Shown: in pieces, positions 6,983-20,571 of the stretch
Layout: the number at the start of each line of letters is the position of its first letter
How positions within the stretch are numbered: position 1 is the stretch's first letter
Origin: Myxococcales bacterium
GTDB lineage: Bacteria; UBA10199; 2-02-FULL-44-16; JAAZCA01
Reading direction: 5' to 3'
Assembly (NCBI GenBank): GCA_012513515.1
Contig: JAAZCA010000040.1
Location: 1-23,023, forward strand
DNA length: 23,023 bases
Position numbers and translations under genes: made by a program
The notes under the pieces: generated by a model
Database searches by the model: none
The model's input: the letters and a program-made list of their open reading frames with translations, nothing else
What the model was told of the DNA's origin: nothing

Positions 6983-7801
6983 ATGCGTATTTCATCTTTC
7001 GGAATGTCCGACGTCGGCATGCGCCGCGAAAAAAACGAGGACAGCTTTCTCGTCAATGACGATGCGATGCTCTATGCCGTCGCCGACGGAATGGGCGGCC
7101 ACCTGGGCGGCGATATAGCCAGCAAAATAGCGGCGCAGACGATCAACGAGGTCATTGTGGCGCTTAACTCTGATCCTGAAGCGCTTCTTCAGCGCGAGGG
7201 GCTTTCATTCAAACCGGGTGAATACCAAGGCTACCTTCGCTATGCGATCCGTCTTGCGAGTCAGAAAATCTTCGAAAAATCAAAATCCGATCCCAACCTG
7301 AAGGGGATGGGCACAACCGCCGTAGCTCTCCTTTTAAGGAATAAGAAGGCTTACATAGCAAACGTTGGCGATTCAAGGGTGTACCGAATTCGCGGCGGTG
7401 AGATAGTGCAGATCACCAAGGACCATTCTCTGGTGGCCGAGCAGATCCGCGCCGGAATCATAACAGACGACGATGCCCGGATTCACAGATTTAAGAATAT
7501 AATCACGAGGTCGGTGGGTTTTCAGGAGGATGTCGAGGCAGATATCGATATAAGGGTGATACGCGCCGGTGATATGTTTGCGCTCTGTTCCGATGGCTTG
7601 AGCAATATGCTGAGGGATCATGAAATTCGCGATGTTGTGGTCAATAACACCCTTCAGGCTTCCTGCAGCAGGCTTATAGATATAGCGAATGCACGGGGTG
7701 GGGATGACAATATCACGGTGGTCTTGGCTAGGATCGAAAGCGTTGAAGATCTGCCCGATCTTGAGACCGAACCCCTGCTCGACGAGCCAGCGGCCGAATA
7801 A
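6983..7801 (+). CDS. PP2C-family Ser/Thr protein phosphatase
   Basis: This is a soluble, metal-dependent phosphatase of the PPM/Stp/PppA type that removes phosphate from Ser/Thr. The protein is 272 aa, a single catalytic domain with a short acidic tail. Motifs in order: NEDSF (18-22), the metal-binding DGMGGH (D35-H40), KGMGTTAVALL, ANVGDSRVYRIRGG, FALCSDGLSNML (D204) and GGDDNITVV (D241, D242). All metal-binding acids look present. ATG 6983 has GGAG 8 nt upstream. No kinase gene is in the window. Three FHA domains, the classical phospho-threonine readers, are encoded 6-11 kb downstream, which suggests but does not prove a common pathway. Confidence 0.95.
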   Translation: MRISSFGMSDVGMRREKNEDSFLVNDDAMLYAVADGMGGHLGGDIASKIAAQTINEVIVALNSDPEALLQREGLSFKPGEYQGYLRYAIRLASQKIFEKSKSDPNLKGMGTTAVALLLRNKKAYIANVGDSRVYRIRGGEIVQITKDHSLVAEQIRAGIITDDDARIHRFKNIITRSVGFQEDVEADIDIRVIRAGDMFALCSDGLSNMLRDHEIRDVVVNNTLQASCSRLIDIANARGGDDNITVVLARIESVEDLPDLETEPLLDEPAAE

Positions 7802-8968: not shown

Positions 8969-11650
8969 ATGATTTCCTACATAGTAAAAAAGATATTCGG
9001 CACAAAGAACGATCGTGAGCTGAAAAGGATAGCTCCGATCGTTGCGCATATAAATTCGCTCGAAGCGGGGGTCAAAGCGCTTTCGGACGACGAGCTCAAG
9101 GCCAAAACTGCCGAGTTTAAAGCGCGGGTAGCAAATGGCGAGGAGCTCGACTCTATCCTTCCCGAGGCCTTCGCCGTAGTCAGGGAGGCCGGTTCTCGCG
9201 TTCTTGAGATGAGGCATTTCGATGTTCAGCTCATAGGCGGAATAGTTTTGAATAGAGGCTGCATCGCCGAGATGAAAACTGGCGAAGGAAAGACGCTCGT
9301 TGCCACACTTCCGGTTTATCTCAATGCCCTTTCAGGAAAAGGCGCGCACGTCGTTACTGTAAACGATTATCTCGCCAGGCGCGATTCGGAATGGATGGGG
9401 AGGCTCTACAAATTTCTCGGCCTTTCAGTCGGAGTGATACTTCACGGCCTTGACGATTCGGAGCGTCAATCTGCTTACGGATGCGACATAACGTACGGAA
9501 CCAACAACGAGTTCGGTTTCGACTATCTCCGCGATAACATGAAGTTCGACAGCGCCAGCTTCGTGCAGCGTCCTTTGAATTTTTGCATCGTGGACGAAGT
9601 TGATTCGGTACTGATAGACGAGGCCAGAACGCCGCTCATCATATCAGGACAGGCGGAGCAGTCCACACAGCTCTATTACGTGATCAACGGTATCACTCCG
9701 TATTTGAAAAGGGATACACACTTTACCGTGGATGAGAAATCGAGATCCGCTGTTCTCACTGAAGATGGTGTGGCCGAGGTTGAATCGCGTTTGAACGTTT
9801 CCAACCTATATGATCCGCAGAATATAAACATCCTCCATCATGTTAATCAGGCGCTCAGGGCTCACTCGCTTTATCAGCGGGATGTGGATTACATAGTCAA
9901 CGACGGGCAGGTGGTCATAGTTGACGAGTTTACGGGTCGCCTTATGCCCGGAAGGCGCTGGAGCGATGGGCTTCATCAGGCCGTCGAGGCAAAAGAGGGC
10001 GTAAGGATAGAGAATGAAAATCAGACCCTCGCTACTATCACTTTCCAGAATTTTTTCAGGATGTACAAAAAGCTCTCCGGCATGACCGGCACGGCTGACA
10101 CCGAGGCCGAGGAGTTTGCAAAAATCTATAACCTGGATGTCATGGTGATACCGACGCACATGCCCATGGTTCGCAAGGATCATCCTGATGCCATCTATAA
10201 AACTGAGGAAGCGAAGTTCAAGGCGACGATAGAAAAGATACGCGAGCTCAATGAAAAAGGGCAGCCCGTCCTTGTCGGCACCATCTCGATAGAAAAGTCG
10301 GAACGCCTTGCGAAGATGCTTGGAAGGTGCGGGATAGCGCACCATGTTCTAAATGCAAAAAAGCACGATAGGGAGGCGGAGATCATCGCCCAGGCCGGGA
10401 GGAAGGGCGCCGTCACGATATCCACTAACATGGCGGGAAGGGGCACCGATATCCTTCTGGGAGGAAACCCAGAGTTCATGGCAAAGGGGCGCGTTGGAAG
10501 CGATGCCTCTCAGGATGACTACTCAAAAGTTTTAACGGAATGCAAAGCGATCTGCGCTGCAGAGAAAAAGGAGGTTCTCTCCTCCGGCGGACTTTTTATC
10601 CTGGGTACCGAACGTCACGAGAGCAGACGCATCGACAACCAGCTGAGAGGGCGCTCCGGACGTCAGGGAGATCCAGGAGAATCCTGTTTCTTCCTTTCTT
10701 TGGAGGACGACCTGCTGCGCATTTTCGGCGGTGACAGAATATCCTCAATGATGGATCGGATAGGGATGGAAGAAGACGAAGAAATTCAGCATCCATGGCT
10801 TTCGCGCGCCATAGCCAATGCGCAGCGCAAAGTTGAGGGCCACAACTTTCAGATAAGAAAAAATCTGCTCGAGTTCGATGATGTGATGAATCAGCAAAGA
10901 TCCACCGTCTATGGAAGGCGCAGGGAAATTCTCACCGGTGCAAGCAATAAAGACATGGTCATGGACATGATCGACCAGATGGTGACCGAAATCGTCGAGG
11001 AGTGCGTCCCTGAAGGGGTGGATGAAAATTTCGATCCATCTTTTTTGGAGGAGCGCATTCGCGAATCTTTCAATATGCAGTTTAATTTTGCCGATGTCCC
11101 GCAGGATAAAAGGAATCAAGAAGGGCTTGGAAGATATATTTTTGATGTGGTGTCAGCTTATTATGAGGAGAGGGAGTCCAAAAATGGACCTGAGCTGATG
11201 CGCCGCATAGAGTCGATAATACTGCTTCAAACCCTCGACGGGCTTTGGAAGGACAACCTCCTTTCCATGGACCATCTGAAGGAAGGAATCGGACTTCGCG
11301 GATACGGCCAAAAGGATCCTCTTCTCGAATATAAAAAAGAGGGTTTTCTGCTTTTTCGAAACATGATGAACCGTTTTGTCTCCGACAGTATCCAGAAACT
11401 CTTTCGCGTTCAGGTCACCACCGAAGAGAGTGTAGACAAGGCCGCAGAACAGAACCGTCTCAGAAGGCAGGTTCATGCGCATCGCGTCGAGAGGAGCGCC
11501 TTCGATGCCAACGCTGCAGCTCCGGATGAGTCCAAGGGAGGCTTCGGCAGGGTGCAAAAAACCGTGAAAAGGGATTTCCCCAAGGTCGGGCGCAACGATC
11601 CGTGCCCGTGCGGAAGCGGTAAGAAATACAAAAAATGCTGTGGAGCATGA
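8969..11650 (+). CDS. secA: Preprotein translocase ATPase SecA
   Basis: SecA is the motor that drives unfolded proteins through SecYEG. The protein is 893 aa, normal length. It has Walker A MKTGEGKT (102-109), Walker B with DEVD (209-212), the preprotein cross-linking region after it, the second nucleotide domain with [15 protein letters not shown] and [11 protein letters not shown], the helical scaffold and wing domains, and a C-terminal zinc-binding tail C879-x-C881-x8-C890-C891. The tail is the SecB/phospholipid contact in proteobacteria. ATG 8969 is the standard family start, although the ribosome site is weak. Its closeness to the M23 gene and to sctV suggests one envelope or export transcription unit. 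Confidence 0.98.
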
Positions 11651-11678: not shown

Positions 11679-13880
11679 ATGTCTATGAGGCCCCCATCAC
11701 AACCTCCCCAGATGCAGCCGTCAGGCGGCGGTGGTATTTCTTCATTGTTTCAGTTCGGGGATCTCAATCAACTGATTGCAAAATACAGCGATGTCGTATT
11801 GGCCATCCTCGTGGTGTTGGTCATCGGGATGATCATCATTCCGCTGCCGACATGGCTGATAGATATTCTGCTCACCATGCAGATAACGCTAGCTGTTGTG
11901 ATACTGCTGGTTTCCCTATATATCACCGATGCCCTGCGCATAGCATCTTTCCCCACCATACTGCTGATAGCTACCCTTTTCAGGTTGTCGCTGAATATAT
12001 CGACAACGAGGTTGATTCTCGCCACTGCCGATGCAGGTGAGGTTGTTCGCGCATTTGGAACCTTCGTCGTGCAGGGGAACTATATCGTCGGTGGAATCCT
12101 CTTTATCATCGTTACCTTGGTCAACTTCATCGTCATTGCTAAGGGTGCCGAAAGAGTTTCCGAGGTCGGAGCTAGATTCACCCTCGATGCTATGCCTGGA
12201 AAGCAGATGTCGATCGATGCTGATTTGAGGGCTGGCATAATCAACATGGAGCAGGCCATCGAGCGCAGAAAGGTTCTGCACAGGGAAAGCCAGATGTACG
12301 GAGCTATGGATGGAGCCATGAAGTTCGTCAAGGGCGACGCCATCGCGGGCATAATCATAACGCTCATCAACATAATAGGAGGTCTCATACTAGGTTCGAC
12401 CGTTCGCGGAATGCCGATCTTTGAGTCCGCTAAAGTATATTCCCTCCTTACGATAGGTGACGGGCTCGTTCAGCAGATACCTGGTCTCATAATATCCGTT
12501 TCAGCGGGTATCGTCGTCACTCGAGTTGCATCGGAAAGCGAAGGTTCAAACCTCGGACGCGACATAGTTACACAGGTGACGGCCTATCCGAAGGCTCTGA
12601 TCATAGCCTCTGTGATACTCGGTATAATGGCGATAGTGCCTGGCTTGCCCAAGGTGCCGTTTATAATACTTGCGATCGTTGTCGGCGCCATAGCTCTTTT
12701 TCTGATCAAGTCGAAGGCGAAGATCGTCCAGGAAATCGCCGACACTCCAAAACAGGAAGCCGTCAAAAAAGCCGTCAGGAAGCACGGCGATGTGCTCCCG
12801 TTTATAATGCCAAGCCCGATCTCTCTCGAGGTCGGCAGCTCCATCATACCATTTGTCGACGATTCTCAGGATGGTGGCCGTTTTATAAACGAACTCATTC
12901 CACTGCTTAGACACGGGCTTTACTACGAGCTCGGAGTCAATTTTCCGGGCATACAGGTTAGGGGGCAGACGGTGGATATGGAGCCGGACGCCTATGTGAT
13001 AAACATCAACGAAGTGCCGGTAGCTCAGGGGAGCATTATGCAGGGGCATATCCTCGTCGGAGAACCTCTGGAGCAGCTGCAACTTTTCAATATAACCGGG
13101 ACTGAAACGATTCATCCCATAGACGGCTCCGTCGTCACCTGGATCAAACAGGAATACAGGGATGTGGCGACCCAGGCGGGTTTCAGAATGTGGGATACAG
13201 CGGAGTATCTCATCCTGCACCTTTCGTACATACTTAGAAAATATGCCCACGAGTTCCTTGGCGTGCAGGAAGTTCAGGTGATGCTCACGGAGCTTGAAAA
13301 GAGCCACCCGGCGCTTATCAAGGAGCTCATACCCAAGGTCGTCACGCTGCTTCAGCTTTCCGAAATTTTTCAAAGGCTGGTGCAGGAGGATGTCGCCATC
13401 AGGGACCTGAAGAGCATATTCATGACGCTCGCGCAGTGGGGTGAAATAGAGCGAGATACGCTTATACTGACCGAGCATGTGAGGGCCGGGCTCAAGCGCT
13501 ACATCACTCACAAGTTCGCCGGAAATTCAAATACCCTTCCAGTCTATCTTCTGGATCCGGATATAGAAGACTTGGTGAAAAACGCTATCAGACGGACGGA
13601 CAAGGGAAACTACCTAGCCCTGGAACCGGAGATAACGCAGGAAATAGTCGAGGCGGTAGGCAAGGAAATCGCCAGCCATCCGTTTCCGCCCGGCGCGAGA
13701 CCTCCTGTGATTCTTACAACCGCTGAGATAAGGCGCTATTTCAGGAAGATAGTCGAACTCGAATTTCCACAGCTTTCAGTTCTTTCCTATCAGGAACTTT
13801 CCGAGAATTTGAGGATTCAGCCGATTGCGCGGGTTGCTCTGCCGGAGGGAATCTTCGAACGCATCCAAGCGGCCGTGTAA
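11679..13880 (+). CDS. sctV: Type III secretion export gate protein, SctV (FlhA/FHIPEP) family
   Basis: SctV forms the nonameric inner-membrane export gate of type III secretion and couples substrates to the proton motive force. The protein is 733 aa. A Pro/Gly/Gln-rich extension of about 30 residues comes first. About eight membrane segments follow between 41 and 342. The FHIPEP signature ARFTLDAMPGKQ...DADLRAG lies at about 165-186. A large cytoplasmic ring domain covers about 360-733. Family-typical ERVSEVGARF, YGAMDGAMKFVKGDAIAG and the ISLEV stretch at the start of the cytoplasmic domain fit the non-flagellar branch better than FlhA. No other sct, flh or fli gene is in the window. It lies 28 nt after secA with no clear Shine-Dalgarno sequence. 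It is convergent with the twin-FHA gene, with a 53-nt gap lacking a clear terminator. Confidence 0.9.
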   Translation: MSMRPPSQPPQMQPSGGGGISSLFQFGDLNQLIAKYSDVVLAILVVLVIGMIIIPLPTWLIDILLTMQITLAVVILLVSLYITDALRIASFPTILLIATLFRLSLNISTTRLILATADAGEVVRAFGTFVVQGNYIVGGILFIIVTLVNFIVIAKGAERVSEVGARFTLDAMPGKQMSIDADLRAGIINMEQAIERRKVLHRESQMYGAMDGAMKFVKGDAIAGIIITLINIIGGLILGSTVRGMPIFESAKVYSLLTIGDGLVQQIPGLIISVSAGIVVTRVASESEGSNLGRDIVTQVTAYPKALIIASVILGIMAIVPGLPKVPFIILAIVVGAIALFLIKSKAKIVQEIADTPKQEAVKKAVRKHGDVLPFIMPSPISLEVGSSIIPFVDDSQDGGRFINELIPLLRHGLYYELGVNFPGIQVRGQTVDMEPDAYVININEVPVAQGSIMQGHILVGEPLEQLQLFNITGTETIHPIDGSVVTWIKQEYRDVATQAGFRMWDTAEYLILHLSYILRKYAHEFLGVQEVQVMLTELEKSHPALIKELIPKVVTLLQLSEIFQRLVQEDVAIRDLKSIFMTLAQWGEIERDTLILTEHVRAGLKRYITHKFAGNSNTLPVYLLDPDIEDLVKNAIRRTDKGNYLALEPEITQEIVEAVGKEIASHPFPPGARPPVILTTAEIRRYFRKIVELEFPQLSVLSYQELSENLRIQPIARVALPEGIFERIQAAV

Positions 13881-13933
13881 AATCTTCAGGCTAACGTTTT
13901 TGGAATTGGGGCTTGGTGTGGGCCTGTCTTTTG

Positions 13934-14983
13934 TTATGAATTTATCAGATTTACGATGGTTATTATGGCGAATATGAGCACCAGCGCGCCAAGACCGATC
14001 ATCCCAATTTCTATCGGGGTTAGAGACTTGATCCCCGTGGCGCCTTTCGGCAATTCCGGGTAAGACTGCCCAAGGGCCTCGCGTTCGAGCTCTTCCCATC
14101 TTTCTACGGCCGATCCGCCTTCATCGGTCTGAATATCGTCACCCTCATCACCTTCTTCATTCTCTTGATCGTAGGCGTTTTCTTCCTGCGGTTCTTCAGA
14201 TCCCTCTTCTGCGCCTGGTATTTCATCGAGGGCGACACGCGCCGGGACGTTCTTAGGTTTTATATCCTCGATGTTAGCCAGGTTGATCTCCTGCGGATTT
14301 CTGAACATGAGGACTATCGTTCCGAGGGCTATCCTGTCGCCATCATGAAGATACTCCTCCACGATTCGCCTGTTGTTCAGGAAGGTTCCGTTCTTGCTTT
14401 CGAGATCCCTTATCGCGATTCCCCCCCAGCGCCGCATTATCTTTACGTGTTTTCTGGAGATGACGTGTTCGTTGATGGGGAAGTCGCATTCGGGATCTCT
14501 GCCTATCACTATCTCGCTGATCTCGTCGGCCAGGACGAATTTTTTACCCTCGGAGGCCCCGTTTAAAACCTCTATGTTTGGAACCGTTTCGCGGTCGATC
14601 GCGTTTAAAACCTTCTTCAGAAGTTTCACTTCGAGGATGTCGCTTTCGGTAACTTCGTCTCGGAATTCATGTTCGAAGGGAGCGTCACCCGCATGGAATT
14701 TTATCTGGTAGTTGTCTATGGTGATGTTGTCGCCGGGTTGTAGCAGATTCCTCTCGTTGGGAGAGAGCCTAGCGCCATTTAAAAAGGTTCCGTTGCCGCT
14801 GTCGAGGTCTACTATGAAAAAATTCTCACCCTCGTAGAGAATTTTTGCGTGCTGCCTTGAAACGCCAACCGCCGGGAGTTGGATGGTGTTATTTTTCAAC
14901 CTGCCGAGGGTGATCTGTTCCTCGGTGCACCTGTGCGTGGAACTTTTGTTTGAGCCAGATTCATTGATTATCAGTGTAGGCAT
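13934..14983 (-). CDS. Twin-FHA, C-tail-anchored membrane protein
   Basis: FHA domains bind phospho-threonine peptides. The protein is 349 aa with two of them. FHA1 shows G27-R28, S42-x2-H45, D59 and N64-G65-T66; FHA2 shows G161-R162, S176-x2-H179, D193 and N198-G199-T200. Both keep the phosphopeptide-binding Arg, Ser, His and Asn. A very acidic linker (about 255-300) follows. The C-terminus is one hydrophobic segment (about 324-346) with almost nothing after it. The FHA domains should therefore face the cytoplasm. The start lies 2 nt after the TPR gene stop, which implies coupling. The organisation recalls the FHA part of the SctD ring protein but without a periplasmic ring domain. Its function is not known. 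Confidence 0.88.
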   Translation of the reverse strand: MPTLIINESGSNKSSTHRCTEEQITLGRLKNNTIQLPAVGVSRQHAKILYEGENFFIVDLDSGNGTFLNGARLSPNERNLLQPGDNITIDNYQIKFHAGDAPFEHEFRDEVTESDILEVKLLKKVLNAIDRETVPNIEVLNGASEGKKFVLADEISEIVIGRDPECDFPINEHVISRKHVKIMRRWGGIAIRDLESKNGTFLNNRRIVEEYLHDGDRIALGTIVLMFRNPQEINLANIEDIKPKNVPARVALDEIPGAEEGSEEPQEENAYDQENEEGDEGDDIQTDEGGSAVERWEELEREALGQSYPELPKGATGIKSLTPIEIGMIGLGALVLIFAIITIVNLINS

Positions 14984-14985
14984 CT

Positions 14986-16173
14986 TCAGCCACCCCGGAT
15001 TTTCTTTTTGGCAATTTCAACTTCAGCCGGGAAATTTCCCCCGGCGGCATCTATGAAACTTTTGTACATCGAGGCTGCTTTCCCCTTTTCGCCTTTCAGT
15101 TCGTAGATGTTGGCTAGGTTGTAGAGCGCCCTCGGATATTTAGGGTCGATGTTGATAGTGTATTCCCATTCGCGCTCGGCTTCGAGTGTTTTGCCCATCC
15201 TGTACAAAGTCAAGCCCAAATTGAAAGAGGCGTCGGAGTAGTTGGGATTTATCTCCTTCGCCTTTCTGAGCGCAGCCATGGCGTCAGAGCTTTTTCCTGA
15301 GGACATGTACACGGTCCCTAGTGAAAACCACGCCTTTTCATCGGTGGGGCGAAGCGTCAGCACGCTTTTGAATTCATTTGCGGCCTCAACGTGTTTTCCC
15401 TCAAACGCATAAAAATGCCCGAGCTCCATGTGCGCGTCCGGCGATGAAGGATCAAGTTCGAGCGCCTTCAGAAAACAGTTTTGGGCCTGGTACGGCTCGT
15501 TTTTCTTCAAATATAACCTGCCTAGCTGAAGCCACCCGTCAACCGATGTCGGCTGGTCTGCCAGCCCAAGGCGTCTGCGTATCTGAGCCTTTTCGTAGTC
15601 GCCGCTTTTCTCGTATATCTGCGCGAGCAGGTTATGAACGTGGGTGAGGCTGGGATTTAACTCGGTCGCCTTCTTGAGGGACTCCTCGGCCAGCTGGATG
15701 TAATCCTTGTCTTTGCTCGTCTTTGTTTTTTCAACATAAGCGAGCCCAAGCTGATAATGCCCGTCTGCAAGCGTCCCGTCCTTTTTCAATCCCTTCTTGA
15801 TGATTTCGATCGCGTCGTCCACGCGCCCCTGTGCTAGATAGACCGCTCCCAAGTGGCTGTAGGCGGCGGCGTAGTTTTTGTCGAGCTCTATGGCCTTTTT
15901 GAACTGGGCCTCGGAGCGAACGAGATCGCCCTTTATCTTGTAGATGATTCCGAGGTTGTTGTAGGCCTCGACGTACTCATGCGATAGCTCGATGGCGGTT
16001 TTGAATTCGATCTCGGCCCTGTCCGTGTTCCCGGCGTTCAAAAGCGATATCCCCTGGTTGTTGTGATAGGCCGCGCGTGCGGTGGGCATCGTTATCTTCT
16101 TTTTCGCATCGGAATCTGCCGGTGCAAAAAACAGGAACGAGGCCATCATCAATAGGAATATCTTTTTCATCAT
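14986..16173 (-). CDS. Exported TPR-repeat protein
   Basis: The protein is 395 aa with a signal peptide (MMKKIFLLMMASFLFF, cleavage probably after about residue 23). The remainder is about ten or eleven tandem tetratricopeptide repeats with the usual alternation of small and aromatic residues (for example YNNLGIIYKIKGD, GWLQLGRLYLKKNEP). No enzymatic motif is visible. TPR superhelices are protein-binding scaffolds; pilotin or assembly-factor roles are common in secretion and pilus systems, but the partner cannot be read from the sequence. GGAGA sits about 5 nt before ATG 16173. It is the middle gene of a three-gene operon, 20 nt after the TolB-like gene and 2 nt before the twin-FHA gene. Confidence 0.88.
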   Translation of the reverse strand: MMKKIFLLMMASFLFFAPADSDAKKKITMPTARAAYHNNQGISLLNAGNTDRAEIEFKTAIELSHEYVEAYNNLGIIYKIKGDLVRSEAQFKKAIELDKNYAAAYSHLGAVYLAQGRVDDAIEIIKKGLKKDGTLADGHYQLGLAYVEKTKTSKDKDYIQLAEESLKKATELNPSLTHVHNLLAQIYEKSGDYEKAQIRRRLGLADQPTSVDGWLQLGRLYLKKNEPYQAQNCFLKALELDPSSPDAHMELGHFYAFEGKHVEAANEFKSVLTLRPTDEKAWFSLGTVYMSSGKSSDAMAALRKAKEINPNYSDASFNLGLTLYRMGKTLEAEREWEYTINIDPKYPRALYNLANIYELKGEKGKAASMYKSFIDAAGGNFPAEVEIAKKKIRGG

Positions 16174-16193
16174 CTGCTCTCCAAATTACGCGC

Positions 16194-17282
16194 TCATTTT
16201 GTCAGGCATGGGTTTATGGCGGCGGCCCGCTGGTAGGCGTCCGTCGAAGCATTGTTGTCGCCTAGGTTCGACGAGCTTATCGAGATATAATACCAGGACA
16301 TCGCATCGTCGGGAACTATCGCCACCGCCCGCCGAAATGCCTCTCTGGCAGTTGCCCAGTCGCCGCTCTGCACAAAGGCCATCCCTTCCTGAAACGCTAT
16401 GTTGTTTTGCATCAGCGGATCGCCAATTTTTGGTTCGTGAGGTTTTTCCTTCGAAAGTACCTTCGCCTTTTTGGCTGTCATCAGAAGCGGCGCAGGCTTT
16501 GCGAGCCTCTGCATCGCTGTGAGTTCGATCCCAGCGTTTTGAAATAGCGTTGCGCCATTTTTGCCGCTCTGCCTTTGGTAGAAGCCTTCAAATGAATACA
16601 GCTTGATCAGCCCTTGGTATCCCAGGGGGGATCTGTAATCTATCCTCTTGGTATCTTCAAACCAGAGCTTGGCCGCTGCGAAGTTGCCGGAGGAATACGA
16701 GTGAAGCGCCCGCATTCCCTTCGCGTAGCTTTCATAGGCCCTGGTCGAGCTCGTCGCATCCCGTACGGCGGAAAACTTTGCCTGGTCGGGGGAGGCCCCT
16801 ATTTTTTTTAGGATCTCCTCGACTATGGCGGCCTGCTTGGTGAAGAACTCCTTGTTGTCGGGATAGGGGAATGTCGCTTCGAACTGCTGGATGAATATAC
16901 CCGCGCTTCCCTCGGTCACGCGAATGAATATCCTTAGTTTGCCATCGAGATTCTGAAAAAGCCCGGAGATCGTGAGAAAGTTAGTGTCGCTAAGCGGGTA
17001 CGATGCGGTTGTCCCCGAATATGGGCGAACCGATCCCGAGGCCGATATGAGATCAGAAAGGTAGAGGGGGATCCCGTGCGTCATCCATTCATCCCCATCT
17101 TTTTTTGTAAAATTCTGAAACTCCAGAATTCGCACCGCGCGCCCCTGCGGCATCTGAGATATCTCGAGATCGGACATCAGCCTTTGCCAGTTGATGCAGG
17201 ACTTCCCCTGAGCATTGGCGCCTGAGGAAATCAGGAGCGCGATGGGAAGAAGGGCCAGTACCTTTATGATGCTGCGAAACAT
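16194..17282 (-). CDS. Exported protein with TolB/FlgO-like N-terminal domain and TPR
   Basis: The protein is 362 aa. A signal peptide covers 1-24 (ending SSGANA). The segment about 45-170 looks like the TolB-N/FlgO-type alpha/beta fold: VRILEFQNFT, then an amphipathic helix around WMTHGIPLYLSDLIS, then strands LTISGLFQNL and LRIFIRVTEG. The rest is helical, with TPR-like repeats at about 180-230 and 295-350 (GMAFVQSGDWATAREAFRRA). The first domain is assigned by pattern, not by strong motif. It is the first gene of the minus-strand operon, divergent from the FHA-PEGA gene across about 96 bp, so the two units may share control. Confidence 0.75.
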   Translation of the reverse strand: MFRSIIKVLALLPIALLISSGANAQGKSCINWQRLMSDLEISQMPQGRAVRILEFQNFTKKDGDEWMTHGIPLYLSDLISASGSVRPYSGTTASYPLSDTNFLTISGLFQNLDGKLRIFIRVTEGSAGIFIQQFEATFPYPDNKEFFTKQAAIVEEILKKIGASPDQAKFSAVRDATSSTRAYESYAKGMRALHSYSSGNFAAAKLWFEDTKRIDYRSPLGYQGLIKLYSFEGFYQRQSGKNGATLFQNAGIELTAMQRLAKPAPLLMTAKKAKVLSKEKPHEPKIGDPLMQNNIAFQEGMAFVQSGDWATAREAFRRAVAIVPDDAMSWYYISISSSNLGDNNASTDAYQRAAAINPCLTK

Positions 17283-17378
17283 GGGCTCAATATCCTGATT
17301 TTCCTTGTTAAAATCAAGATATATGTACGTTTAGACGCTTTACGCCTCAGCTCCTTTGTGATAATCACGAAATATCTT

Positions 17379-19613
17379 ATGCCCTCGAAAAAGACGCAAA
17401 CCAAAGAGCGTGGGCTCCCCTCGGAAATGCTTGAAAGAGGGGATGCCTTAAGCCCCAATGACAAGACGATCATAAAATCAGCCGACGATCCGGATGAACT
17501 TACCCCGTCGCGCCCGCAGTATTCCCCGCCATATCTCGTTATAATAGATGGGCCAAGGGCTGGAGCCCATTTCCCGCTGGGACCGGGAGAAAATGTCATA
17601 GGGCGTGCCCCCGGGAATGCGGTTCGCCTGGAGGATCAAAGCGTTTCAAGGCAGCATGCCGAAATTTCAAAGGGGACTTCCGGCTGGTTGGTCAAGGATC
17701 TGGGCAGTAAGAACGGCACCAGCGTCAATGGACGATCGGCGACAGAGGCGGTCATAATAGGCCATAAGGATTTAATAAAGACAGGCATCTACCTTATGCG
17801 GCTGGTCACTCAGCCCCTTTCGCAGGAAGATGAAATGGAGCTTCCGCGGGATGCGATGGCTGAAAGGACGGTTTTTGTATCGGCCCCTCCTGATGGGCAG
17901 ACCGCGCGTATGGATGACCTTTCAGATGCTGTCCCTGGGGATTCGGTTGCCGGTGGTGAAGACCAGGGGCTCCCCGATGACTTCGATGAATATGAAGAAC
18001 AGGAGCTTATAGCCCGGAAAGCCAGCGCGATGTTGCGTAGGAAGAAGCGGGTTATGTATGGCGGGCTCATTCTGGCGCTCTTGCTAGCCGCCGGATATTT
18101 CGGATATCGCACCATTCTCAAGAGGTCTGTGAGTGCGGTCAAAACACAGCAGGTTCCTTCTCAGCCCGCCGATTTGTCACAGACTCCCCCCCCAGGGTCG
18201 GATCTTCCACCCGCGGCCGGGGAAGGCACTGGGAATCTCCCCCCTTCAGGGCCTGTTCAGCCTGGATCGGCGATTCCATCCGCAGCCCCGGAAGTTGCCA
18301 AGGTGCCGGTGTTTCTCGATATAGCATCCAGCCCGATGCCGGTGAATGTTACCTTCCAGGGGCAGCCGCTCGGAAGGACCCCTCTTCGCGTAAATATAGA
18401 GCTCGAGCCGGACAGCACTCATGAAATAGAGGCCCTCTTTGAGATGCCGGAGATAGGCGAGAACTTTACGCAGAAGATGGAATTTACGACCGAGAAGGGG
18501 CAGTCTGTCATTCCGATACTCTTCAGAGGCCCGATCGGGATGCTCAAGATCAACGACATCCCCAGAGATGTGGAATTTTACCTCGAAGGTAAATTCTCAT
18601 ACGACAAATTTCAAGATCGCTCCGCGAAGATCACCGAGGTGGTCCTTGAAAAGCCGATCTATGTTCCGTACGGAAAATATTTCATGGAGCTCCGCCGCGA
18701 GCGCCAGCTGGGGCAGAGCTCCCAGACCTTCGTCACCGATATAATATTCAGGCGTGATTTTACGATCGGCGAGGAGAGCCCGACCTTCGTCCTAGGCGTG
18801 AAAGATGCGGATCTGGCGGTATTTCCGGCAAGGGTGCGCTCCGAACCTGAAAACGCCGATGTATACATAGATGGGAAAAAAGTCGGCAAAACCCCGTTCG
18901 AAGGAGTTTTCCCGATAGGGGAGCACAGGCTTTCGGTCAGGAAAGAAGGTTTCTTTGAACATTCCGAAAGCCTCAAGGTTGATATCAATACTCCTTACGT
19001 CGCCAATATAAAGCTTCAGACCTCGCTCGCTGGAGCGCATCTCAATAATGCAAAATTGGCGATGGACCGCCAGATGTGGCAGGATGCCATTAATGAGTTG
19101 GCCGAGGCTCTTAATAAAAACGCTGCGCCCAGCGAAGTGGCTCAGGCTCATTATATGCTGGGTTTGTGCTATGCGAACCTCAACGACATCCAGCGCGCGA
19201 TGGGGTATTTCGAGCAGGCGCGCGAGCATCCCGATCAGAGACATCGTGCGATGCTCGGGCTTGTCAGCGGCTATGCGGCGATGGACAAATTAGATGCAGC
19301 GCTTCCGCTTCTTGTGGAGGTTATGCTGAAGGTTGACGATGAGGGAGTAAAGCGGGAAGCCAACGATATGTTCCAGAAGATATCTCCGTTTAGGTCGGTG
19401 ATCTACGTTTACTCCGAACCTCCGGGGGCATCTGTGACGGTAAACGGGAAGGGTGTCGCTCAACCTACTCCTGTTATACTGCACGAACTTCCACTTGGTA
19501 ACTACAAGATCAGGGTGGAAAAGCCGGGATATCTTCCGACCGACTTGAACCTTTCCCTGTCCGTTAATGAATTCAACCCCGTAATCGTCAAGCTCAAGCC
19601 GATACCTAGATGA
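17379..19613 (+). CDS. FHA-TM-PEGA-TPR-PEGA membrane protein
   Basis: The protein is 744 aa from ATG 17379; a GTG at 17358 would add seven residues, and neither has a clear ribosome site. Order: an FHA domain at about 50-145 (G75-R76, S90-x2-H93, N112-G113-T114), an acidic linker, a membrane segment at 227-246 preceded by RRKKR, a Pro-rich stretch, a PEGA-like domain near 309-390, a second near 485-548 (DVYIDGKKVGKTPFEG), TPR-like helices at about 553-655, and a last PEGA at 675-744 (EPPGASVTVNGKG, LPLGNYKIRVEKPGY). The positive-inside rule puts FHA in the cytoplasm and the PEGA/TPR part in the periplasm. This is the same cytoplasmic-FHA, single-TM, periplasmic layout as SctD. It probably passes a phospho-signal to an envelope structure. 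Confidence 0.85.
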   Translation: MPSKKTQTKERGLPSEMLERGDALSPNDKTIIKSADDPDELTPSRPQYSPPYLVIIDGPRAGAHFPLGPGENVIGRAPGNAVRLEDQSVSRQHAEISKGTSGWLVKDLGSKNGTSVNGRSATEAVIIGHKDLIKTGIYLMRLVTQPLSQEDEMELPRDAMAERTVFVSAPPDGQTARMDDLSDAVPGDSVAGGEDQGLPDDFDEYEEQELIARKASAMLRRKKRVMYGGLILALLLAAGYFGYRTILKRSVSAVKTQQVPSQPADLSQTPPPGSDLPPAAGEGTGNLPPSGPVQPGSAIPSAAPEVAKVPVFLDIASSPMPVNVTFQGQPLGRTPLRVNIELEPDSTHEIEALFEMPEIGENFTQKMEFTTEKGQSVIPILFRGPIGMLKINDIPRDVEFYLEGKFSYDKFQDRSAKITEVVLEKPIYVPYGKYFMELRRERQLGQSSQTFVTDIIFRRDFTIGEESPTFVLGVKDADLAVFPARVRSEPENADVYIDGKKVGKTPFEGVFPIGEHRLSVRKEGFFEHSESLKVDINTPYVANIKLQTSLAGAHLNNAKLAMDRQMWQDAINELAEALNKNAAPSEVAQAHYMLGLCYANLNDIQRAMGYFEQAREHPDQRHRAMLGLVSGYAAMDKLDAALPLLVEVMLKVDDEGVKREANDMFQKISPFRSVIYVYSEPPGASVTVNGKGVAQPTPVILHELPLGNYKIRVEKPGYLPTDLNLSLSVNEFNPVIVKLKPIPR

Positions 19614-19992: not shown

Positions 19993-20571
19993 ATGAAATA
20001 TCTTATCGCTGCAATTGCAATAGCTCTTGTTTTATCGCCATCAGTTATTAAGGCGGGGATTTCTAAGACCGATCTCAGCAAGGGTGTTGTTTTGACAGAA
20101 GAGGCGACGCTTCTGACGCAGGTCGATGCCGTAAGCCTACATTTGAGCTCCGAGAATATAAAATTTGCGCCGAGGCTTACCGAATCGGGCCTAATCGACG
20201 TTGAAACGACCGTGCTTTCTAAAAAGCTTCTTCAGGACAAGGAAAAGCTGAATTCGTTTTTGGACAGAAACGTCAAAACCTTCATAGCTTTGTTAAAGGA
20301 AAGATTGCCTATCTACGCCCCTTCGGTAGCAAAGAATTTCAATCCGAATTCTCAGATAAGATTTAACGTGAACTCCGGGGCGAAGAGGGAAGCTGTGGCG
20401 GTATGGTCCGGAGGCGCGTGGAGCTGGGACAAGGCCTTCGTCCCAGCGCCAGCTGTCGTAGAATCCTCCACGTTTGCGGCCCAGTCCCCCGAAGCCTATG
20501 CGCCTGCTACTGAAGAGAAGCCCAGAGGAAAGGGCAAGCTCTCCTGCGACTGCCCGGCGAGAAGAAAATAG
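19993..20571 (+). CDS. Small secreted protein of unknown function
   Basis: The protein is 192 aa and I do not recognise its family. A clear signal peptide (MKYLIAAIAIALVLSPSVIKA, cleavage near 21) is followed by a mixed alpha/beta body to about residue 150. It has a helix-rich centre (DKEKLNSFLDRNVKTFIALL) and a WSGGAWSWD stretch. The tail is Ala/Pro-rich and ends basic, with two cysteines close together (SCDCPARRK). GGAAAGG lies 5 nt before ATG. Base composition is like the genes to its left. It stands alone between the repeat mosaic and the AT-rich segment. Confidence 0.75.
   Translation: MKYLIAAIAIALVLSPSVIKAGISKTDLSKGVVLTEEATLLTQVDAVSLHLSSENIKFAPRLTESGLIDVETTVLSKKLLQDKEKLNSFLDRNVKTFIALLKERLPIYAPSVAKNFNPNSQIRFNVNSGAKREAVAVWSGGAWSWDKAFVPAPAVVESSTFAAQSPEAYAPATEEKPRGKGKLSCDCPARRK

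Follow-up and report, generated by a model that had tools for sequence, protein, structure and literature searches.

The window analyzed here is an entire contig of 23,023 bases (G000:C40) from a genome of the class UBA10199 (1.79 Mb, 99% complete, 42 contigs). It carries sctV, the gene for the export gate of a non-flagellar type III secretion system, which faces a group of genes for FHA, TPR, and PEGA proteins (Table 1). The sctV product matches Pfam FHIPEP (PF00771) with 775 bits and the NCBIfam SctV model (TIGR01399) with 786 bits, above the cut-off of 692; the FlhA model scores 678, below its cut-off of 772. A profile search of the genome returned this as its single FHIPEP gene. The positions and domains that an earlier note had assigned to sctV and to the genes for a twin-FHA, a TPR, and an FHA-TM-PEGA-TPR protein were reproduced by Pfam and NCBIfam. 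Its label "TolB-like" for a further product found no Pfam support, the TolB/FlgO-like start of this protein being seen by eye only. All open reading frames (ORFs) are open. The note had also described sctV as solitary over about 10 kb on either side. This is true of the contig, where those flanks are everything there is and no other sct gene was found, but not of the genome.

The remainder of the system lies on two further contigs, with SctR/S/T/J/L/N/Q encoded on contig C17 (33-50 kb) and SctU on contig C29 (55 kb). The C17 operon begins with p111, p179, TPRc3, SctJ, p141, a FliA/WhiG-type sigma factor, a SctI-like protein, a FliG-like protein, and SctL, and continues with SctN, SctO, a FliK-like SctP, a FliM-type SctQ, a FliN-type SctQ, FliO, SctR, SctS, SctT, and the group EFt355-TPRc2-t316-TPRc1; the SctI-like protein, SctO, SctP, SctS, and SctT were named from sequence pattern and position only. 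The export apparatus SctRSTUV and the ATPase SctN are all present. Among the components for which a genome search had been suggested, SctR, SctS, SctT, SctU, SctN, and SctJ were found, but no dedicated secretin SctC was detected in the genome. Flagellin was not found there either, and within the class it is confined to the three genomes that also have FlhA. Two Ser/Thr kinases accompany these loci. The first, with six PEGA domains, is encoded together with an FHA-sigma54 activator on the 3' side of the C17 operon, on the opposite strand, and the second, with a PEGA-like tail, is divergent to SctU. A kinase or FHA gene adjoins SctU in 21 of 29 loci.

We placed the window's SctV in a tree of SctV and FlhA proteins (93 rows, SH-aLRT support, a quick method with some long branches). 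The SctV proteins of the class form one clade (support 100). Its sister group, at 97, is the SctV of the "needleless" type III system of myxobacteria, T3SS*, and both are nested in the non-flagellar clade (100), whereas FlhA falls outside it; relationships in the tree broadly match families. We consider membership of the window system in the T3SS* family highly probable. A second, different non-flagellar SctV (about 670-700 bits in Pfam) occurs in three class members, at G020:C56 (L230), G035:C58 (L216), and G030:C59 (L213), and groups with the chlamydial/classical injectisome side of the tree.

Conservation was assessed in 40 genomes of the class (1.1-4.6 Mb, nearly all fragmented drafts), whose genes were called as mechanical ORFs and matched with HMMER. 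FHIPEP was found in 38 of the 40 genomes (some 20 families), and SctR and SctU in 37 each. The genes for SctV and the twin-FHA protein are convergent and within about 8 kb of each other in 19 genomes from 11 families, a recurrence far beyond chance. Furthermore, the gene for the FHA-TM-PEGA-TPR protein (FHA-PEGA) immediately precedes the p111-p179-TPR-SctJ operon in 18 genomes (p111 or p179 was missed in a few), 11 of which have the uninterrupted block SctV / twin-FHA - TPR - TolB-like / FHA-PEGA - SctJ operon. The TolB-like gene is kept in the block of 15 class genomes. The window's order (families f1 and f3) is the only one in which FHA-PEGA was seen separated from the operon. We therefore assign the FHA cluster to the type III system: in most relatives the FHA/TPR/PEGA genes share a block with SctV and the SctJ operon, and their separation is peculiar to the window's order. 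A contig break as the sole cause of the split was rejected: both pieces are internal to long contigs in G001, and G002 has the same unrelated gene (w19993, see below) 3' of FHA-PEGA. An apparent SctP of 5,796 amino acids in G029 proved to be a run of masked N.

The earlier note had offered two readings: either the genes are a dispersed portion of a divergent type III system, or the export gate has been recruited by a machine of another kind. The partners on other contigs, the block in most relatives, and the position of SctV in the non-flagellar clade support the former. The opposite picture, a complete cluster elsewhere with its own SctV or FlhA and no conserved linkage between sctV and the FHA genes, is contradicted twice, by the single FHIPEP gene and by the conserved linkage. 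We read the window, with a probability of roughly 0.7, as the export gate and FHA/TPR accessory module of a secretin-less, Myxococcus-type T3SS* whose other parts are encoded on two more contigs. A literature search found no paper joining UBA10199 with type III secretion.

Table 1. Genes of the type III/FHA cluster and conserved neighbors, with positions in the window.
Feature	Position	Strand	Basis
sctV, export gate of non-flagellar type III system	11679..13880	+	Pfam PF00771, NCBIfam TIGR01399, tree
Twin-FHA protein, 349 aa, C-terminal membrane anchor; convergent with sctV	13934..14983	-	Pfam FHA (two) and Yop-YscD_cpl
TPR-repeat protein, about 10 repeats; partner gene of the twin-FHA gene	14986..16173	-	Pfam TPR
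Signal-peptide protein with C-terminal TPR ("TolB-like" gene)	16194..17282	-	Pfam TPR
FHA-TM-PEGA-TPR protein (FHA-PEGA), 751 aa	17358..19613	+	Pfam domains
secA, conserved upstream neighbor of sctV; housekeeping, no component role claimed	8969..11650	+	Pfam SecA
PP2C phosphatase, Stp1 family	6983..7801	+	NCBIfam NF033484, above cut-off

The twin-FHA protein was compared across 26 sequences from the class and the myxobacteria. G-R and S-R-x-H in both FHA domains and S-x-N in the second are invariant, and all 26 proteins have a single membrane segment, located at the C-terminal end. FHA domains with such residues are phosphothreonine readers, and judged by these motifs the reader residues are intact in both domains. 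The partner TPR gene occupies the same position in class relatives and in myxobacterial loci. For FHA-PEGA, an AlphaFold2 (AF2) model, with folded parts mostly at pLDDT values near or above 90, places the FHA domain at residues 56-153, followed by a membrane helix ending at about 254, beta domains, TPR at 555-675, and a final PEGA-like domain. Structural matches in Foldseek were dominated by FHA and TPR and include the YscD FHA; the top row, 6fwv_B, was ignored (TM 0.09). The periplasmic part is PEGA/TPR-like, and Foldseek gave no known fold for its middle portion, which we do not take as evidence of novelty. The SctD model (TIGR02500) had no match above cut-off in any of the 40 class genomes, and the best sub-threshold matches across the 40 are mostly the FHA domain of FHA-PEGA, which is also the best such match in the window's genome. 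Like SctD (YscD/PrgH/CdsD), FHA-PEGA has an N-terminal FHA domain, one membrane segment, and a periplasmic part, and with this topology it is the best SctD-like candidate. It differs from SctD in that PEGA and TPR replace the known ring-building domains and in that the reader motif of its GarA-like FHA domain is intact.

At the head of the C17 operon, the small conserved protein p179 is a candidate for the needle. The needle model PF09392 gave nothing above cut-off. In a profile comparison, the C-terminal 47 columns of p179, a short helical stretch, align with SctF through to the C-terminus with a probability of 94 and a score of 47; the probability is 86 for the class alone and 94 for the myxobacteria alone. 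Among the controls, 18 other local families scored ≤ 32 and 60 column shuffles ≤ 15. The gene lies between p111 and a TPR protein (TPRc3) with sub-threshold matches that include the CdsG and LcrH models, and this head of the operon recalls the sctE-F-G gene order of injectisomes. That p179 is a needle or filament subunit is a hypothesis to which we give about even chances, and the match to SctF puts the label "needleless" in question, both in the class and in myxobacteria. No informative Pfam or NCBIfam match was obtained for p179, EFt355, or t316, and searches of PDB profiles with p111, p179, SctI, EFt355, and t316 gave chance-level matches only. An AF2 model of p179 (pLDDT 53; helical, with a long C-terminal helix) was poor and was not used as evidence. 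A p179-like gene beside SctJ was also observed in a second myxobacterial T3SS type, whose SctV is about 44% identical (G059:C6:371.7 kb, L265; G055:C1:2797.4 kb, L266).

We propose a working model in which SctV, together with SctRSTU, SctJ, SctN-L-O, and a FliG/FliM/FliN-like ring, would form an inner-membrane export basal body. FHA-PEGA would take the role of SctD, with its FHA domain in the cytoplasm and its PEGA/TPR part serving as an envelope anchor in the periplasm. Beside the gate, the tail-anchored twin-FHA protein would bind phosphothreonine marks, which the linked PEGA-type Ser/Thr kinases would write and the PP2C phosphatase would erase, so that assembly or opening of the export gate would answer to an envelope signal. 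The needle or filament would be built from p179, with p111 and TPRc3 as chaperones, and the outer membrane would be crossed through the secretin of another system (Tad, type II, or type IV-pilus-like), unless the filament stays periplasmic. Given the PEGA-type kinases at the other two loci, the PP2C gene in the window, and the FHA readers, the simplest interpretation is that the export apparatus is subject to a write-read-erase circuit, in which the window PP2C may remove the threonine phosphate that the FHA proteins recognize. Whether the export apparatus is in fact under phosphothreonine control seems to us evenly poised. A precedent exists in the chlamydial FHA protein CdsD, which is phosphorylated by the kinase PknD (PMC2765968). 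As to function, prey lysis by myxobacteria depends on T3SS*, which is recruited to the prey together with the Kil (Tad) pilus (PMC12075869, PMC10433427). The class may tentatively use its system in the way of Myxococcus, for attacking other cells on contact, the link to predation being drawn by homology only.

Several observations weigh against parts of this interpretation. FHA-PEGA and the TolB-like gene were not found at the myxobacterial T3SS* loci, including next to the operons, and because of this absence they are not required for every T3SS*. FHA-PEGA does not reach the cut-off of the SctD model, and its FHA domain looks like that of a true phosphothreonine reader, whereas SctD FHA domains are mainly structural. 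The needle match is limited to 47 columns. Moreover, Tad, which Myxococcus needs, is marked by RcpC in only 12 of the 40 class genomes, and because this partner is so restricted, coupling of the Kil kind cannot be the rule; in the window's genome the Tad secretin is a candidate outer-membrane route, but it is not a general answer. The Tad pilus operon of this genome (L241:5148-13239; G000:C36:85-93 kb) encodes TadE-like pilins, CpaB, a secretin, an ATPase, and TadB/C-like proteins.

As a variant of our interpretation that does not exclude it, export could lead to the periplasm only, where the subunit from the operon head and its partners would assemble into a filament or be fed into a pilus or type II system. 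This would suit a genome without a detected dedicated secretin, whose three secretins each lie within the operon of another system (type II secretion, type IV-pilus-like, and Tad), as well as the predicted, at least partly periplasmic location of FHA-PEGA and the TPR proteins. In Myxococcus, Tad tips have been proposed as a stand-in for the missing needle complex (PMC12075869). However, LcrH-type chaperones are paired with the secreted-looking proteins EFt355 and t316 after SctT, which suggests substrates destined for the outside, and we consider export confined to the periplasm rather unlikely.

Alternatively, the FHA/PEGA/TPR genes could form an independent envelope-signaling module that merely adjoins sctV and is not used by type III export. 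These bacteria commonly employ FHA, PEGA, and TPR proteins as regulators, with many FHA matches per genome, the absence of FHA-PEGA and the TolB-like gene from the myxobacterial locus would fit, and SctV lies far from the FHA/PEGA/TPR genes in G015, G018, and G022. However, where SctV has been relocated (these three genomes and G030), FHA-PEGA remains in first place, directly ahead of the SctJ operon, and the twin-FHA and TPR genes are retained with SctV in two distant lineages. FHA-PEGA is present in 28 of the 31 class genomes that are at least 90% complete, and in G025 and G035 it is missing jointly with SctR, G025 retaining only the flagellar FliP; the operon may have been lost there, or its contig may not have been assembled. 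An independent module is improbable in light of these patterns. In G024 (C2:232-240 kb, L208; 95% complete), SctV and the FHA block are present and neither the SctJ operon nor SctR was found, a pattern of operon loss or a missing contig. A decaying flagellar or type III remnant, scattered through ongoing loss, could be suspected from the three separate loci of a genome in which no flagellin, dedicated secretin, or above-cut-off SctD was found, and from G006, G024, and G035, in which SctR was not found, but it is highly improbable in view of the open ORFs, the near-universal presence of FHIPEP, SctR, and SctU, the gene order kept across the class and with myxobacteria, and an SctV tree that broadly follows families.

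Regarding the neighboring genes, the SecA-SctV gene pair recurs in many relatives, and a PP2C gene upstream of M23-SecA-SctV is also found in G001, G005, G017, and L091. On the other side of the cluster, w19993 (window 19993-20571) encodes a protein of 192 amino acids that begins with a signal-like stretch and is not matched in Pfam, and is located 3' of FHA-PEGA in the window's family (G000, G001, and G002). From position 20001 to the contig end at 23023, the GC content drops from about 0.52 to 0.36-0.43. This region contains glycosyltransferase and mannosyltransferase genes, and the drop suggests that they are acquired surface-sugar genes.

Reading the window as part of a T3SS* has several implications. 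The secretin-less Myxo system has been assigned to the root of non-flagellar systems and interpreted as having lost its needle and possibly not secreting outside the cell (Abby & Rocha; PMC3459982). Near-universal occurrence of the same locus in a second lineage indicates that T3SS* is ancient and functional and not a myxobacterial oddity. Conservation of the twin-FHA protein next to SctV suggests that threonine phosphorylation is an original control input of this export gate, and the FliG homolog and the needle-like subunit make filament-building by T3SS* testable in Myxococcus xanthus. The system may also have retained a stage midway between flagellum and injectisome. In its boldest form, which we advance with less than even confidence, T3SS* would be a complete machine with its own needle or filament (p179 with SctE/SctG-like partners), a FliG/FliM/FliN ring, gating by phosphothreonine-reading FHA proteins, FHA-PEGA replacing SctD, and no secretin, that is, a living flagellum-injectisome intermediate and a core trait of a mostly non-flagellated class.

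Among known systems, the myxobacterial T3SS* (M. xanthus MXAN_2434-2464; the "Myxo" non-flagellar system of Abby & Rocha 2012) is the first to be compared. Its locus order is p111-p179-TPR-sigma-SctI-SctJ-FliG-like-SctL-N-O-P-Q-FliO-R-S-T-U, with SctV facing the twin-FHA and TPR genes, and it agrees with the class except for the positions of SctJ and SctU. SctJ follows the sigma factor and SctI in myxobacteria but precedes both in the class, where SctU has a separate locus, frequently next to a Ser/Thr kinase, and two proteins, one FliM-type and one FliN-type, make up SctQ. Like the class, the myxobacterial system has LcrH-type chaperones and no dedicated secretin (PMC10433427, PMC3459982). 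In myxobacterial loci, e.g., at L092:7259-7537, a separate gene of about 90 codons that matches the C-terminal part of SctU was seen directly after SctU. FliO has been reported in the myxobacterial-type system before (PMC12403147). All 20 class members of the FliG-like operon protein match FliG_C and 19 match FliG_M in Pfam, and solved FliG structures match at 1.1e-11; the protein at the same place in myxobacterial loci matches weakly and has positional support, although a 2012 survey listed FliG as absent (PMC3459982). We found no mention of the FliG homolog or the needle-like subunit in the literature that we read.

With the canonical injectisome (Ysc, Cds), the class system shares SctV, R, S, T, U, J, N, L, O, P, and Q and a SctI-like protein, and the head of its operon resembles the SctE-F-G order. 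It differs in having no secretin at its loci, no SctD above cut-off, and no needle-family match above cut-off, and in additionally encoding FliO, a FliG homolog, and a FliA-like sigma factor in the operon. From the flagellum, the system of the window's genome is set apart by the absence of flagellin, by SctV in place of FlhA, and by a SctJ of the short lipoprotein type in place of FliF; with it, the class operon has in common FliG-, FliM-, FliN-, and FliO-like proteins, a FliK-like SctP, and a FliA/WhiG-type sigma factor.
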